Assembly (NCBI RefSeq): GCF_001514065.1
Contig: NZ_KQ948422.1
Span: 1,116,001-1,180,000, forward strand
Direction: 5' to 3'
DNA length: 64,000 nt
Origin: Streptomyces antibioticus
GTDB lineage: Bacteria; Actinomycetota; Actinomycetes; Streptomycetales; Streptomycetaceae
Positions within the stretch are counted from its first letter, which is position 1; every line of letters begins with the position of its first letter. The position numbers and the translations under genes were made by a program. A model generated the notes under the pieces. The model did not search any database and was not told the DNA's origin. It saw only the letters and a program-made list of their open reading frames with translations. Below are positions 32,024 through 38,387 of this stretch, one piece after another.

Positions 32024-32923
32024 TCAGTCAGGCGCCGTGCGGCCGCGGACCGCGACGCGGAAGGCGATCGGGGTCTGGTCCGTGCGGTGATGGAAGTACT
32101 TGCTGAAGTGGGTCGCGCTGGAGAAGCCGAGGCGCTCGGCGATGCGGGCGGCGCTGTGGTCGCTGTGGGCCAGGAGTCGCTTGGCCTCCAGGACGACGCG
32201 ACGGTCGATGAATTCCTTTGCGCCGAGGCCGGCCGCGGCGAGCGTGGCGCGGGACAGCGTGCGGGACGACCAGCCCAGTGCCGCGGCGTAGTCCTCGACC
32301 CGGCGGGTGTGGGCGAAGTCCTGTTCCACTGCGTCACGGAAGCGCAGGTAGGTGGTGTCGGGCGCGGGTGCCGGGCTTCCGGCGGGCGCGGTGAGGTGGG
32401 CGAGCCTCAGGACGAGGACCGCGAGCAGATGCCGTAGAGCCGCGGTGTGGATCTCCAGGGGCAGGTGTCCGAGGGCGTGGAACTCGGTGGTGAGGTGGTC
32501 TGCGGCCAGCCGTAGGGCCGCTGCGTCGTCGGGCAGGGGGCGGCGCAGGACCGGGGCGTGCGGGTCCTCCAGGCGGGCGCCGGCGGTGGTGGCCGGGTCG
32601 AGGAAGTCCTGCCGGAACAGGATCAGGGTCCCTTCGGCGTGGGTGAGGTCCCCCCACTGCTGGACCTGGCCGGGGCGTACCCAGAGCCAGGAGCCGGGGT
32701 CGAGGGCGTAGCCGGTGAAGTCGACCGTGTGCCGCAGGCTCCCGGCGCCGAGGGTGATCAGGTGGTGGAAGTCCGGTCGCTGGCGGACGGTGAGCCGCTC
32801 GGCGGAGACCCGGTGGCGCAGGTCGGCCAGGGACAGCACTTCGACGCCGGCCGGGGTCCCGGCGGGCGCGGAGAAGGAGACCTCCGGGATGCCGCGCTCG
32901 GCATCGTGTCGCTTTTTGACCAT
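32024..32923 (-). CDS. AraC family transcriptional regulator
   Basis: About 299 residues. The N-terminal cupin-like sensor has GSLRHTVDFTGYALDPGSWL and WVRPGQVQQWG. The C-terminal double helix-turn-helix has VEDYAAALGWSSRTLSRATL and ARIAERLGFSSATHFSKYFH. I chose ATG 32923 because homologous N-termini begin near RHDAERGIPEVSF; in-frame starts at 32959 and 33064 exist. It is divergent from the double SnoaL gene and probably regulates it. Confidence 0.88.
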   Translation of the reverse strand: MVKKRHDAERGIPEVSFSAPAGTPAGVEVLSLADLRHRVSAERLTVRQRPDFHHLITLGAGSLRHTVDFTGYALDPGSWLWVRPGQVQQWGDLTHAEGTLILFRQDFLDPATTAGARLEDPHAPVLRRPLPDDAAALRLAADHLTTEFHALGHLPLEIHTAALRHLLAVLVLRLAHLTAPAGSPAPAPDTTYLRFRDAVEQDFAHTRRVEDYAAALGWSSRTLSRATLAAAGLGAKEFIDRRVVLEAKRLLAHSDHSAARIAERLGFSSATHFSKYFHHRTDQTPIAFRVAVRGRTAPD

Positions 32924-33075
32924 CACCAGTCGCCAGCGTATCCGATCCGTACTGTTCATCCGGCCTAGCTTGGAGATGTCAGCCCGACCACCGTCGATCC
33001 GATGTCGGAAAGCGGTAAGGGAGGGGACTTCCTGGTCTTCCCCTTCAAGACCGGACCTCGCCAAGGAGAACCGTC

Positions 33076-33837
33076 ATGAGCAACGCCACGACCACCGTCC
33101 TGACCGCCGCCGGCGAGCTGTTCGGGCAGAAGGACCCGAGCGCCGTGGACCGCTGGGTCGCCGCCGACTACCGCCAGCACAGCGCCCTGGCCGCTGACGG
33201 TCCCGAGGCCCTGCGGCAGTTGGTCGCCGGCCTGCCGGAAGGCTTCCGCTACGAGGGCGCCCGCGTGATCGCCGACGGCGACCTGGTCGCCCTGCACGGC
33301 GTCTACCACGGCTTCGGCCCCGTCCCGCTGGTCGCCTTCGACGTCTTCCGCGTCGATGCCGACGGCAAGCTCGCCGAGCACTGGGACGCGCTGACCCCGC
33401 TGGTCGGGGACACCGCCTCGGGCCGTTCCCAGACCGACGGTCCCGCCGAGCCGGCCGACCTGGACCGGACCGAGGCCAACCGCGCGCTGGTCCTGGAGTT
33501 CGCCGAGAAGGTCCTCAAGGGCGCCGACTACTCCGTACTGACCGACTACATCTCGACCGAGGTCTACCACCAGCACAACCCCGAAGCGGCCGACGGCCTC
33601 GACGGTTTCGGTGCCGCCGCCGCGAAGTGGGCCGAGCAGGGCAAGAACCTCGTCTACAAGACCGTCCACCGGGTCGTCGCCGAGGGCGACTTCGTCCTGT
33701 TGCAGTCCGAGGGCGAGTTCGGCGTAGCCGTCGCCTACTACGACCTCTTCCGCGTCCAGGATGGCAAGATCGTCGAGCACTGGGACGTCATCGCCCCCGT
33801 TCCCGCCGAACTCCCGCACTCCAACGGTCTGTTCTGA
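33076..33837 (+). CDS. Tandem SnoaL-like (NTF2 fold) protein
   Basis: 253 residues composed of two SnoaL-like domains. Domain 1 is about 5-115 (YRQHSALAADGPEALRQLVA, LVAFDVFRVDADGKLAEHWD). Domain 2 is about 130-245 (YHQHNPEAADGLDGFGAAAA, YYDLFRVQDGKIVEHWDVI). Both keep the Asp/Glu-His-Trp-Asp ending typical of the fold. Members are small-molecule isomerases, hydroxylases or binding proteins. Two copies in one chain would form an internal dimer. AAGGAG precedes the ATG. It lies 89 bp before the macrodomain gene on the same strand. Confidence 0.88.
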   Translation: MSNATTTVLTAAGELFGQKDPSAVDRWVAADYRQHSALAADGPEALRQLVAGLPEGFRYEGARVIADGDLVALHGVYHGFGPVPLVAFDVFRVDADGKLAEHWDALTPLVGDTASGRSQTDGPAEPADLDRTEANRALVLEFAEKVLKGADYSVLTDYISTEVYHQHNPEAADGLDGFGAAAAKWAEQGKNLVYKTVHRVVAEGDFVLLQSEGEFGVAVAYYDLFRVQDGKIVEHWDVIAPVPAELPHSNGLF

Positions 33838-33926: not shown

Positions 33927-34865
33927 GTGCCCGTGACCGCACTGCCGCTCGCCGCCTACCGCGCCGCCGTCGCCCTGGACGAGCCGTTCCGGCCCACCGC
34001 CACCCATGACCCCGAGCAGTGGTCCGGCGGCGATGCGGTCCGCGCGCTGCTCGACCTGCTGGGCGACGACCCGGCGGCGACGCGGGCAGGGCTGCGCCCC
34101 GGCGCGGTGGACGGGCTCGCCGAGGCCGACGCCCGGCGGGTGCTGCGTGCCGTGCTGACCGTACGGGAAGCGGCACCCCTTCCCACCGGGGCCGCCGAAG
34201 CGCTGGACATGCTGCTGTCCCGCGAACGCCGGGCACGCCCGACGACCGACGCGGCCTCGCTGCCCACGCTCCGCGACACGCTCCCCCGCACCACGTATCG
34301 GGCCGCCGACCGTACGGCGCTCTGGCAGGGCGACCTCACCACGCTCGGCGCCGACGCCGTCGTGAACGCCGCCAACAGTGCGCTGCTCGGCTGCTTCGCC
34401 CCGATGCACGCGTGCATCGACAACGCCCTTCACGCCGCGGCCGGACCCCGGCTGCGCGCCGACTGCCACACGATCATGTCCTTGCAGGGCCACCCGGAGC
34501 CGACCGGCACCGCCAAGATCACTCGCGGCTACCACCTGCCCGCACGCTATGTCCTGCACACCGTCGGCCCCGTCGTCGACGGCCCGCTGCGCCCCCCGCA
34601 CGAGAGGGCGCTGGCCGCCTCGTACCGCGCCTGCCTCGACCTCGCCGCCGAGGTCGACGGCGTGCGCACCGTCGCGTTCTGCGGCATCAGCACCGGTGTC
34701 TTCGGCTACCCCAGGACGCCCGCCGCCCGCACGGCCCTCGACACGGTGGCCGACTGGCTCGACCGCCACCCCGGGCGGTTCGACCGCGTGGTGTTCAACG
34801 TGTACGGGGACGACGACCACGCCGCGTACACACGCGCCCTCACCGAAAGCACCCCGTCGAGATGA
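33927..34865 (+). CDS. Zinc-type macrodomain ADP-ribosyl hydrolase (Zn-Macro)
   Basis: 312 residues. An N-terminal helical extension (1-120) precedes a macrodomain at about 125-305. The region ADAVVNAANSALLG, then GCFAPMHACIDN at 155-166 and the helix after it, contains the Cys/His cluster that marks zinc-dependent macrodomains. FCGISTGVFGYP is the second ADP-ribose loop. Family members remove ADP-ribose from targets modified by SirTM. The GTG at 33927 has GGGAGG 5 nt upstream. Its stop overlaps the next ATG as ATGA, so it is coupled to the SirTM-type gene. Confidence 0.88.
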   Translation: MPVTALPLAAYRAAVALDEPFRPTATHDPEQWSGGDAVRALLDLLGDDPAATRAGLRPGAVDGLAEADARRVLRAVLTVREAAPLPTGAAEALDMLLSRERRARPTTDAASLPTLRDTLPRTTYRAADRTALWQGDLTTLGADAVVNAANSALLGCFAPMHACIDNALHAAAGPRLRADCHTIMSLQGHPEPTGTAKITRGYHLPARYVLHTVGPVVDGPLRPPHERALAASYRACLDLAAEVDGVRTVAFCGISTGVFGYPRTPAARTALDTVADWLDRHPGRFDRVVFNVYGDDDHAAYTRALTESTPSR

Positions 34866-35770
34866 ACGAGCCCACCGGCTTCGACCTGGAAGCCGCCGCC
34901 GGCACGCTGCGCACCTGGCTCGCCGAGGCCGACCGCGTGCTGATCACCGCCGGGGCCGGTCTCAGCGCCGCCGCCGGACACGACTACGGCGACGAGGACC
35001 GCTTCCGGGAGCTGTTCCCCGCGCTGCACCGCGCCGGCCTGCGCTCCCGCTACCTGGTGGGCGTGCCGCTGCCTCCCGCCCTGCGGTGGGGTTTCTGGGC
35101 CGTCCACATCGACGACATCCGCTTCTCCACCACACCCAACCCGCTCTACCAGCGGCTGCGCGCGCTCGTAGAAGGCACGGACCACTGGGTGATGACGTCC
35201 AACGTGGACGGCTTCTTCGCCCGCAACGGCTTCGCCCCGGACCGCGTCTTCACCCCGCAGGGCGACTACGGCCGCTACCAGTGCGCCACTCCCTGCACTC
35301 CCTCGACCTGGGACAGCCGGCCGCTCGTCGCCCAGCTCCTCGCCGCCCACGACCCCGCGACCGGCGCCGTCACCGACCCCGACGCCCTGCCCCGCTGCCC
35401 GAACTGTGCGGGCGAGGTCGAGATCAACGTCCGTGTCGGCCCGCAGTTCGTCGACGCGCCGTACCTCCCCGCGGGCCGTCGACTCCGGCACTGGCTGGGC
35501 ACGGCTCCCGCCGACACCCGCCTGCTGGTCCTGGAGTTCGGTGCCGGATTCAACACCCCGGGCGTGATCCGACGGCCCGGCGAACAGCTCGTCCGGCACT
35601 TCCCACGGGGCCACCTCGTACGCGTGAACCCCGACCATCCGGACACACCCGCCGACCTCGCCGACCGGGCCCTGCCCGTCCCCGTCGGCGCCGCCCGCCT
35701 GCTCGGCATACTCGCCACGCCGCACCCGGCGCCCGACCCTACGGTGACAGTCCGAGCCGTGCCGGAGTAA
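34862..35770 (+). CDS. SirTM-type sirtuin (probable protein ADP-ribosyltransferase)
   Basis: 302 residues. NAD motif GAGLSAAAG is at 31-39 and TSNVDGFF at 112-119 (N114, D116). The position of the catalytic histidine in ordinary sirtuins is Q133 (FTPQGDYG). Zinc is bound by C141/C145 and C179/C182. The His-to-Gln change is the hallmark of the SirTM class, which ADP-ribosylates proteins rather than deacylating lysines. Co-translation with a zinc macrodomain is also diagnostic. No GcvH-L carrier or LplA2 ligase is present nearby, unlike the bacterial pathogen operons, so the target here is unknown. Confidence 0.88.
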   Translation: MNEPTGFDLEAAAGTLRTWLAEADRVLITAGAGLSAAAGHDYGDEDRFRELFPALHRAGLRSRYLVGVPLPPALRWGFWAVHIDDIRFSTTPNPLYQRLRALVEGTDHWVMTSNVDGFFARNGFAPDRVFTPQGDYGRYQCATPCTPSTWDSRPLVAQLLAAHDPATGAVTDPDALPRCPNCAGEVEINVRVGPQFVDAPYLPAGRRLRHWLGTAPADTRLLVLEFGAGFNTPGVIRRPGEQLVRHFPRGHLVRVNPDHPDTPADLADRALPVPVGAARLLGILATPHPAPDPTVTVRAVPE

Positions 35771-35858: not shown

Positions 35859-37073
35859 ATGGAGATACGTTTCACGACCGACGAGGACCTGGAGGTCTTC
35901 GTCGACACGGTCCATGCCGCGTTCGGGCGCTTCCCCGAGACCCCGGTCGACGGCGGTGGGCTGTGGTGGTCGGCGCTGGAGACGGACCGCTGCCTCCTCG
36001 CCCTGACGGCGGACGGGCGGCCCGTGGGCACCGCCGCCTCGCACGCCTTCGAACTCACCCTGCCCGGTGGGACCTTGGCCTCGGCCCCGGGCGTCACGGC
36101 CGTCGGCGTACTGCCCTCGCACCGGCGCCAGGGCGTGCTCAGCGCGATGATGCGCCATCAGCTCGCCGGGTTCCGGGACCGCGGGGAGTTGCTGGCGGTG
36201 CTGCTGGCCTCCGAGGCCACGATCTACGGCAGGTTCGGCTACGGGCCGGCCACGTATACGGGGCAGCTGACGGTGCCGCGCCGGCGGGCCGAGCTCAGCG
36301 CTCCCCGGGCCGGCCGAGCGGCGGCCGACACCGGCTCGGTCGAGGTGCTGCGGCGTGCCGAGTGCGGTGAGCTCCTGGAAGAGGTCTACGACCGCTACCG
36401 CCGCGCCCAGCCCGGCGCGCTGTCGCGTCCGCACCGCTGGTGGGCCCTGCGCGCCGGACAGCCGCCGATCTCACCGGCGCCGCGCTACATCGCCGTTCAC
36501 CGCGACGCCGACGGAGTACCGGACGGATACGCCAGCTACTCGCTCGGCGAGCACGAGACGCTGAAGGTCGACGAGACCATCACCACGGACAGCGCCGCCT
36601 TCACCGCCCTGGCCCGGTTCCTGCTCGGCCACGACCTGGTCGGCAAGGTGGTGTTCCGGCACGTCCCGCCCCAGCACCCGCTGCGCTGGCAGCTGGCGGA
36701 CTTCCGCGCCGGCGAGGTGGGCGGCGACACGGACTGGCTGTGGGTGCGGCTGCTGGACGTGCCACGTGCGCTGACCGCGCGCGGCTGGTTCACGGACGGG
36801 GAGCTCGTCCTCGACGTCGAGGACCCGTTCCTCGCGGAGCGGGGCCGCTGGCTGCTGACCGTCTCCGAGGGCAAGGCCGACTGTGTTCCGACGGACCGGG
36901 CGCCCGACCTCTCCCTGGACATCCGCGATCTGGGTTCGATCTACCTCGGCGGCACCGCCCCGAGCACGCTCGTCCGTGCGGGACACGTCCGGGCCCACCA
37001 TGCGGACGCGGGCCCGCTCGCCGACGCCCTGTTCCGCGGCGACCGGCTCCCGCACTGCCTGCACTGGTTCTGA
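35859..37073 (+). CDS. Eis-like GNAT N-acetyltransferase
   Basis: 404 residues, the normal Eis length. The layout is two GNAT domains and a sterol-carrier-like tail. The acetyl-CoA region VTAVGVLPSHRRQGVLSAMM is near residue 85, with YGRFGYGPATYTG after it. The tail ends CLHWF with the C-terminal carboxylate used as general base in Eis. Eis enzymes acetylate aminoglycosides and other amines at several positions. ATG 35859 follows GAGGAGG at 11 nt. It is 88 nt downstream of the sirtuin and could be cotranscribed, but a role in ADP-ribosylation is not implied. Confidence 0.9.
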   Translation: MEIRFTTDEDLEVFVDTVHAAFGRFPETPVDGGGLWWSALETDRCLLALTADGRPVGTAASHAFELTLPGGTLASAPGVTAVGVLPSHRRQGVLSAMMRHQLAGFRDRGELLAVLLASEATIYGRFGYGPATYTGQLTVPRRRAELSAPRAGRAAADTGSVEVLRRAECGELLEEVYDRYRRAQPGALSRPHRWWALRAGQPPISPAPRYIAVHRDADGVPDGYASYSLGEHETLKVDETITTDSAAFTALARFLLGHDLVGKVVFRHVPPQHPLRWQLADFRAGEVGGDTDWLWVRLLDVPRALTARGWFTDGELVLDVEDPFLAERGRWLLTVSEGKADCVPTDRAPDLSLDIRDLGSIYLGGTAPSTLVRAGHVRAHHADAGPLADALFRGDRLPHCLHWF

Positions 37074-37241: not shown

Positions 37242-38387
37242 ATGTCCACTCTTCCCAGCAGAAGGCGTGTCCTGTCCGTCGGCGCCGGCGCCGCCTTAGG
37301 TGCGGGCGTGTTCGGCGCCTCGGCGGTCCCGGCGGCGGCCACCCCCACGGCGTCACGGCAGCGGAGCGGGCCCGAGGAGACCCGGACGCTGGACGAGTTG
37401 TACCGGGCCGCTCTGGCCGAGGGCGGGAAGCTGGTCGTCTACGCGGGCGGCGACACCCCGACCCAACAGGACGGCACCAAGGCGGCGTTCAAGGCCCGCT
37501 TCCCCGACATCGACCTGACGCTCATCGTCGACTACAGCAAGTACCACGACGTCCGGGTGGACAACCAGTTCGCCACCGACACCCTGGTACCCGACGTCGT
37601 ACAGCTGCAGACGGTGCAGGACTTCGTCCGCTGGAAGGAGCAGGGCCGGCTGCTGCACTACAAGCCGTCCGGTTTCTCGAAGGTGTACGACGCCTTCAAG
37701 GACCCCCAGGGCGCGTGGGTGGCCGGCGGCGTGATCGCCTTCAGCTCCTTCTACGGCACGGCCGCGGTCGGCTCCGACGCACCGCGCAGCCCGCTGGACC
37801 TGGTCGACCCGAAGTGGAAGGGCAGGATCGCCTCGTCGTACCCGCACGACGACGACGCCGTCCTCTACCTCTACAGCCTCTACGCCCGGCAGTACGGCTG
37901 GGAATGGGTGGCCAAGCTCGCCGCCCAGGACGTGCGGTTCGCCCGCGGCAGCAACTCGCCCGGCGACGCGGTCCGCTCCGGGCAGAAGGCGATCGGCATC
38001 GGCGGCTCGGCCTCGGCGCTTCCCGCCCCCACGTCCCCCGTGCAATCCGTGATCACGGACGGGCACCCCTTCATGGGCTGGGGCCAGCGCGTGGCCATCC
38101 TCAAGGAGGCCAAGAACACGACGGCGGCCAAGCTGTTCCTCAACTGGCAGCTGTCCACCGAGACCCAGCAGCGCTCCTTCAACGGCTGGTCGGTGCGCAC
38201 CGACGTCACTCCCCCGGCCGGGCTGAAGCCGATCTGGGAGTACCCGAACGCCCACCTGGACGGCTTCCCCCGCTTCATGGCCGACCGCGCGGCGGTGGAG
38301 CGCTGGAAGCAGACCTTCGCCCTGTACTTCGGCGAGGTCAAGGGCGATCCCACCCCCGGCTGGCTCGGCCTTCACCCCGGGGCCTGA
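37242..38387 (+). CDS. Orphan Tat-exported ABC extracellular solute-binding protein
   Basis: 381 residues. The signal SRRRVLSVGAGAALG is of twin-arginine type; cleavage is near PAAATP and no lipobox Cys is seen. The mature part is of the iron/putrescine-type fold: KLVVYAGGDTPTQQDGTKAA, FPDIDLTLIVDYSKYHD, VVQLQTVQDFVRWKEQG, GQKAIGIGGSASALP. No permease or ATPase is adjacent, so it works with a distant transporter or as a free scavenger. Codon 19 (37296-37298) is TTA, implying bldA-dependent translation and late expression. Confidence 0.85.
   Translation: MSTLPSRRRVLSVGAGAALGAGVFGASAVPAAATPTASRQRSGPEETRTLDELYRAALAEGGKLVVYAGGDTPTQQDGTKAAFKARFPDIDLTLIVDYSKYHDVRVDNQFATDTLVPDVVQLQTVQDFVRWKEQGRLLHYKPSGFSKVYDAFKDPQGAWVAGGVIAFSSFYGTAAVGSDAPRSPLDLVDPKWKGRIASSYPHDDDAVLYLYSLYARQYGWEWVAKLAAQDVRFARGSNSPGDAVRSGQKAIGIGGSASALPAPTSPVQSVITDGHPFMGWGQRVAILKEAKNTTAAKLFLNWQLSTETQQRSFNGWSVRTDVTPPAGLKPIWEYPNAHLDGFPRFMADRAAVERWKQTFALYFGEVKGDPTPGWLGLHPGA

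Follow-up and report, generated by a model that had tools for sequence, protein, structure and literature searches.

Extended SirTM operons, as set out in passages of PMC4518038, occur in Staphylococcus aureus and Streptococcus pyogenes and encode GcvH-L, LplA2, a zinc macrodomain (Zn-Macro), the class M sirtuin SirTM, OYE, and LLM. Pairs of SirTM and Zn-Macro lacking GcvH-L, termed 'independent' or 'minimal' operons, have also been described in parts of PMC4518038 and PMC11490716, the latter giving examples from Methanobrevibacter oralis, Enterococcus faecalis, and Treponema pedis. In the fungal protein Mfs1 (structure 8rsn) the macrodomain and the sirtuin are fused, and the available passages of PMC11490716 name its substrate as an open question. 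Here we analyze 64,000 nucleotides of Streptomyces antibioticus (assembly GCF_001514065.1, contig NZ_KQ948422.1, positions 1,116,001 to 1,180,000; hereafter the window), where a Zn-Macro gene and a SirTM gene follow a gene for a double SnoaL protein and a divergent AraC-family regulator. We consider it rather probable that this writer-eraser pair is built into an AraC-controlled stress operon, with the double SnoaL protein as the leading candidate for its target. This reading draws on the presence of both protein classes with their catalytic residues, on their co-occurrence, on the conserved gene order, and on a shared operator-like element.

The locus resembles the extended operons of S. aureus and S. 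pyogenes in that genes for a small partner protein and for redox enzymes accompany a writer-eraser pair, and differs from them in having a double SnoaL protein and an AraC regulator, with no lipoyl carrier or ligase. It shares with the minimal operons the lack of GcvH-L and LplA2 and the same catalytic residues; however, those operons consist of the pair alone, whereas the window pair belongs to an actinomycete AraC-SnoaL cluster. Unlike Mfs1, it comprises two separate overlapping genes. SCO6735 of Streptomyces coelicolor is also a Streptomyces macrodomain, but it belongs to the ALC1/TARG1 branch and is apparently not linked to a sirtuin, and the word zinc is absent from the available passages of PMC5087735. 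The strings 'Actinobacteri' and 'Streptomyces' do not occur in the main texts of PMC11490716 and PMC4518038.

The macrodomain-sirtuin pair and its lipoyl-free setting

The zinc macrodomain, a predicted ADP-ribosyl hydrolase (eraser) of 312 amino acids, is encoded at 33927..34865 on the plus strand, and the sirtuin, a predicted mono-ADP-ribosyltransferase (writer) of 302 amino acids, at 34862..35770 on the same strand, the two open reading frames (ORFs) sharing the four bases ATGA. A first interpretation made from the letters of the DNA (hereafter the sequence-only reading) had proposed this overlap, a zinc cluster in the macrodomain, and Gln133 in place of the catalytic His of the sirtuin, and all three were upheld. 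Sequence comparison shows the eight-residue Cys-x4-His-x-Cys zinc loop (C156, H161, C163; bases 34389-34424) and the Dx3H motif (D165, H169). In the alignment, the catalytic Asn118, Gln137, and Arg192 of SpySirTM correspond to Asn114, Gln133, and Arg191 of the window sirtuin, where QG (Gln133-Gly134, the Gln133 codon lying at 35258-35260) replaces the catalytic HG motif. The sirtuin is genetically linked to a zinc macrodomain, as class M membership requires, the fold also backs this assignment, and the nearest solved sirtuin by sequence is the fungal Mfs1 fusion 8rsn (5.7e-45). By sequence this is a Zn-Macro/SirTM pair, and analogy with known relatives makes it highly probable that the two proteins act as writer and eraser. 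That they are an ordinary deacylase and an ordinary hydrolase of ADP-ribose or O-acetyl-ADP-ribose is very improbable: the sirtuin does match NCBIfam deacylase models, but its scores of 28.4 and 19.4 bits fall far below the respective thresholds of 243 and 320.

The sirtuin was found in 20 of 392 Streptomyces-genus genomes and Zn-Macro in exactly the same 20, including one (G248) where the two genes are unlinked. The four-base overlap is kept in 18 of the 24 other loci where both genes were called side by side; in the other six the spacing is 25, -29 (in three loci), 7, or -20 bases. This count omits L102, where the gene order differs. The strict co-occurrence and the overlap kept in most adjacent pairs would suit a toxin-antitoxin-like system in which SirTM is a harmful ADP-ribosyltransferase or a consumer of nicotinamide adenine dinucleotide (NAD) and Zn-Macro its antidote. 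We regard this as quite unlikely, given the stress enzymes around the pair, the lack of a PADLOC match for the four proteins, the intact sirtuin that adjoins a broken Zn-Macro in G295 (L077), and six loci of other actinobacteria (L098, L099, L101, L107, L109, and L114) with SirTM-like sirtuins and no detectable Zn-Macro in the 9-13 kb fetched. Anti-phage defence was rejected, since PADLOC matched none of the Zn-Macro, sirtuin, SnoaL, and AraC proteins at E<=0.01, as was a role as phage cargo, the sirtuin being matched by one of 50,697 phage records, at 27.5% identity.

Among 396 sampled actinobacterial genomes, 20 match the sirtuin at E<=1e-10, the window's own included; two of these matches (L113 and L117) keep the ordinary His and are not SirTM, and four further ones are weak (about 1e-11). 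A quick sirtuin tree, which came with long-branch warnings, gathers Firmicute, Treponema, and other actinobacterial sequences with SpySirTM in a strongly supported set (22 rows, support 99); the sirtuins of Streptomyces, Nocardia, Actinospica, Micrococcales 31B, and Pseudopropionibacterium lie outside it. The tree omits duplicate or broken copies (L110, L073, and L092), and the frameshifted L017 copy entered by its first part only. Other broken copies are a frameshifted sirtuin in S. himastatinicus (L017, L110) and decayed second copies in G275 (L073) and G104 (L092). L109 has three sirtuin-like pieces in a row.

The sequence-only reading had noted that GcvH-L and LplA2 are missing, and this extends from the window to the genome as a whole (10.1 Mb, with completeness estimated by the tool at 99.98%), where searches with PF01597, PF21948, and PF03099 found neither. 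PF01597 matched a single canonical GcvH, adjoining ORFs that, judged by eye, start like GcvT and GlyA; PF21948 matched one protein, LipB, followed by a LipA-looking ORF; and PF03099 matched BirA. That reading overstated this absence as what marks the case out: since lipoyl-free pairs are a known subtype, the lack of GcvH-L and LplA2 is expected, and the enzymes and their lipoyl-free pairing are known already. Extended, lipoyl-type operons carry GcvH-L and LplA2 with the pair, which is not the case here; minimal operons are pairs without either, which is what we find, and the co-conserved SnoaL and AraC genes make the window operon more than minimal.

The class was characterised on lipoyl-GcvH-L (passages of PMC4518038), and canonical GcvH and LipB are present in the genome, so that the target might, like that of the Firmicute system, be a lipoylated protein, here a housekeeping one such as an E2 subunit or the canonical GcvH itself. 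Three observations make this unlikely. In a set of 40 genomes, a second GcvH copy was present in 5 of the 20 that have the pair and 4 of the 20 that lack it, hence no extra GcvH tracks the pair. According to passages of PMC11490716, the Zn-Macros tested there, taken from a minimal pair and from fusion proteins, failed to remove the modification from SpyGcvH-L. Finally, no lipoate gene was seen beside the pair in the actinobacterial loci inspected, where not every neighbour was annotated.

The double SnoaL protein as companion of the pair

Directly upstream of the Zn-Macro gene, at 33076..33837 on the plus strand, lies the gene for a double SnoaL/NTF2-fold protein of 253 amino acids, with SnoaL family matches in both halves (Pfam SnoaL_2, 79.7 bits, and SnoaL, 69.7 bits, in two stretches). 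Its structural model (mean predicted local distance difference test, pLDDT, of 94.0) has two NTF2-fold domains, and a single domain matches 3g0k. The window copy has no cysteine, therefore Asp or Glu would be the acceptor. The top Foldseek matches, the epoxide hydrolases Lsd19 and MonBI/MonBII, were rejected as a guide to its function: whole-chain template modelling (TM) scores are 0.36-0.42 and the root-mean-square deviation about 15 A, hence the two domains are arranged differently.

The sequence-only reading had singled out this protein as a candidate partner, and as an association the proposal is well supported. In the Streptomyces-genus genomes, the double SnoaL is present at >=69% identity, a cut-off of our choosing, in all 20 genomes that have the pair and 7 of the 372 that do not (Fisher p 4.8e-28, uncorrected for kinship). 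A match in two pieces in G011 was counted as present. At E<=1e-20, SnoaL matches occur in 66 of the 392 genomes, and those outside the >=69% set reach at most 50% identity, except for one 68-residue piece in G191. The association holds in four genomes whose SnoaL and sirtuin genes do not share a contig: G248 carries Zn-Macro and SnoaL together, on a contig other than that of the sirtuin; in G295, the sirtuin and the broken Zn-Macro are on one and SnoaL on another; in G275, intact sirtuin and Zn-Macro genes share a contig, with SnoaL copies on two others, one adjoining a broken sirtuin; and G789 (the genome of L014) has its SnoaL gene on a separate contig from the sirtuin. Kinship was addressed with a tree of the rpoB region covering 15 pair genomes and 15 that lack the pair, where supported branches show no fewer than 5 changes of the trait. 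SnoaL follows the sirtuin in 4.9 of 5 independent pairs on average and never goes the opposite way, for a p of 0.0625, the lowest reachable with five pairs only.

The SnoaL protein may also be a mere fellow passenger, a member of the same AraC regulon that travels with the pair while the target is elsewhere in the cell. Shared regulation alone would hold SnoaL and pair together, SnoaL and AraC stand without the pair in the 7 genomes mentioned above, mostly side by side (L083-L090), and in a second collection the SnoaL gene was found in 16 of 19 genomes identified via the sirtuin, leaving 3 of 19 (Actinospica, Micrococcales bacterium 31B, and Pseudopropionibacterium) with the pair alone. Hence, neither strictly needs the other across actinomycetes. 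Against this stands the presence of SnoaL in all 20 pair genomes of the Streptomyces genus, and in the separate-contig cases, and we give the passenger explanation a substantial but lesser chance of being right.

The AraC regulator and the operator-like element

The divergent AraC-family regulator (32024..32926, minus strand, 300 amino acids; Pfam HTH_18 at 70.2 bits for a cut-off of 33.6, and HTH_AraC) retains its place next to SnoaL in most relatives. An operator-like sequence, TGTCGCTTTTTGACCAT (32907..32923, plus strand, exact pattern match), overlaps its first codons, and the conservation of the element beside AraC genes may be partly coding. Further down the divergent region lies CCTAGCTTGG, a block conserved in the divergent regions of relatives, with TAGCTT (32966..32971, plus strand) as the putative -10-like element of the SnoaL promoter. 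A conserved leader block, GATGTCGGAAAGCGGTAAG... (33001..33026, plus strand), is followed in relatives by a DsbA-like gene, which the present locus lacks. A sigma-70 scan of the whole operon returned 0 promoters, and one terminator-like site was found for 0.6 expected.

The operator-like element is found at 24 of 30 AraC-adjacent gene heads, at 7 of 10 SnoaL or sirtuin heads without AraC, and at 1 of 220 background genes. The second fraction is 7 of 12 before setting aside the L002 SnoaL, inside an operon, and the small SnoaL of L110, behind a sirtuin. Without an adjacent AraC gene, the element precedes the sirtuin in L077, L079, and L014 and SnoaL in L075, L078, L080, and L082; wherever it was found before such SnoaL genes (5 genes), it lies 126-127 bases upstream. 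Thirteen Zn-Macro and three NmrA heads without AraC lack their own site and are read as inside operons. The single background gene with the element heads a run of alcohol dehydrogenase, Zn-Macro, and aldehyde dehydrogenase genes in G275.

We also scanned 40 genomes with the pattern TGTCNNNTTYTGRCCAT, allowing up to one mismatch and using the reversed pattern as control. Sites outnumber control matches in the 20 pair genomes (70 versus 17) and in the 7 SnoaL-only genomes (18 versus 2), and do not in the 13 genomes with neither (10 versus 14). Exact sites number 29 in the 27 SnoaL-positive genomes and 0 in the 13 others. Twenty-four of these 29 lie at AraC/SnoaL/sirtuin clusters; of the remaining five, three lie close to AraC paralogues, one precedes the alcohol dehydrogenase run, and one precedes a gene that looks unrelated. 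A cluster site is present in 19 of the 20 pair genomes. One-mismatch sites were also seen before a DsbA-like gene (L133, L134) and, next to a paralogue of AraC, before a gene for a WrbA-like quinone reductase. The link between the pair and the AraC regulon is likely.

A TGTCGGnTTyTGTCCAT-like sequence occurs at one conserved place in several Streptomyces (L125, at G000:C3:33697-33713, and L129-L132), before genes that show no connection with this system.

Neighbouring genes and the proposed switch

Relatives of the window locus come in two forms. Form A starts with a divergent AraC gene, often a DsbA-like gene (12 loci), the double SnoaL, and often a MoaF-like gene of 107 amino acids, and continues with Zn-Macro, SirTM, and often a single SnoaL of 126 amino acids; the window has a short form with AraC, SnoaL, Zn-Macro, and SirTM. 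Form B (for example L071 and L082) consists of SirTM, an NmrA-family NAD(P)-binding protein, the double SnoaL, and Zn-Macro, with an additional MoaF-like gene in L075. A LigB/4,5-DOPA-type dioxygenase stands between SnoaL and Zn-Macro in L007 and L011, and the dehydrogenase genes around Zn-Macro in G275 encode an aldehyde dehydrogenase (Pfam, 492.8 bits) and a zinc alcohol dehydrogenase. Outside Streptomyces, in loci picked as examples and not blindly, Pfam confirmed HxlR regulators near the sirtuin in 6 of 6 tested loci (L021, L097-L100, L105) and NmrA-type proteins in 2 of 2 (L100, L106). In further such examples, on Enterococcus, Treponema, and Vibrio plasmids, the annotated neighbours include short-chain dehydrogenase/reductase, NAD(P)H-binding, PNPOx-family, NAD(P)H oxidoreductase, and quinol-monooxygenase-like proteins. 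The neighbour set of NmrA proteins, dehydrogenases, and oxidoreductases fits the handling of aldehydes, quinones, or oxidants, and agrees with the role in oxidative stress that passages of PMC4518038 report for the SirTM class.

On a Roseburia plasmid (L122), a SirTM/Zn-Macro pair adjoins an operon of an ACGX-repeat peptide and a radical SAM maturase with a nitroreductase. In the window, the gene directly downstream of the sirtuin (35859-37073, plus strand) encodes an Eis-like GNAT acetyltransferase with an SCP2 domain (NCBIfam NF002367, 327.8 bits, cut-off 259); it was rejected as an operon member, no homologue having clustered at the same place in the relatives' stretches. A gene at 37308-38387 (plus strand) encodes an extracellular solute-binding protein, weakly similar to 2-aminoethylphosphonate-binding proteins, below NCBIfam cut-offs.

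Several observations weigh against an AraC-controlled stress operon with the double SnoaL as target. Besides the genomes that have SnoaL or the pair alone and the p of 0.0625 given above, Arg192 of SpySirTM is unmatched in two actinomycete sirtuins (L018 and L020). The window has no redox gene between regulator and sirtuin, and the WrbA-like, alcohol dehydrogenase, and benzaldehyde dehydrogenase matches are under NCBIfam cut-offs. The loci used to count the operator pattern are for the most part those that had supplied it, and 6 of the 30 AraC-adjacent heads, 3 of the 10 others, and the G325 cluster showed no element within one mismatch. The window's own genome is not enriched in sites (2, up to one mismatch, for 3 with the reversed control), and the second of them, also seen in G110, G376, G189, and G226, precedes unrelated genes and was not counted as part of the regulon.

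Under the reading we favor, the divergent AraC regulator would sense stress and switch the operon on, the most likely inducer being an electrophilic metabolite such as an aldehyde or a quinone. Judged from the neighbour genes only, the chances of an electrophile signal are about even. SirTM, using NAD+, would then mono-ADP-ribosylate a protein acceptor, and the zinc macrodomain would take the ADP-ribose mark off. This acceptor would differ from a dedicated lipoyl carrier. The double SnoaL, which may have the role that GcvH-L has in the Firmicute operon, is the strongest candidate; the alternative is some enzyme acting in that pathway. We propose the double SnoaL as the direct target tentatively.

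A full-text literature search returned no paper joining 'SnoaL' and 'macrodomain', nor 'macrodomain', 'NmrA', and 'sirtuin', and Streptomyces appears in no title among the papers on SirTM and macrodomain, in a wider search too. As preprints, subscription papers, and supplementary tables lie outside this search, actinomycete members may have been noticed earlier. What looks new is the company of the pair, namely the double SnoaL, the AraC regulator, and the operator-like element, and not the absence of a lipoyl carrier.

To the question of what lipoyl-free SirTM/Zn-Macro pairs and fungal Mfs1 act on, a companion gene kept in 20 of 20 genomes and preceded by the same operator-like element brings a specific and cheaply testable candidate from soil bacteria that are harmless, and the neighbour genes suggest what the switch may respond to. 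More speculatively, and with considerable doubt on our part, this could be a second kind of extended SirTM operon, in which reversible ADP-ribosylation of a double SnoaL, not of a lipoylated GcvH-L, would switch an AraC-controlled response to aldehydes or quinones. SirTM/Zn-Macro pairs might then be, in general, plug-in regulators of small electrophile-handling proteins, of which lipoylation would be one special case.
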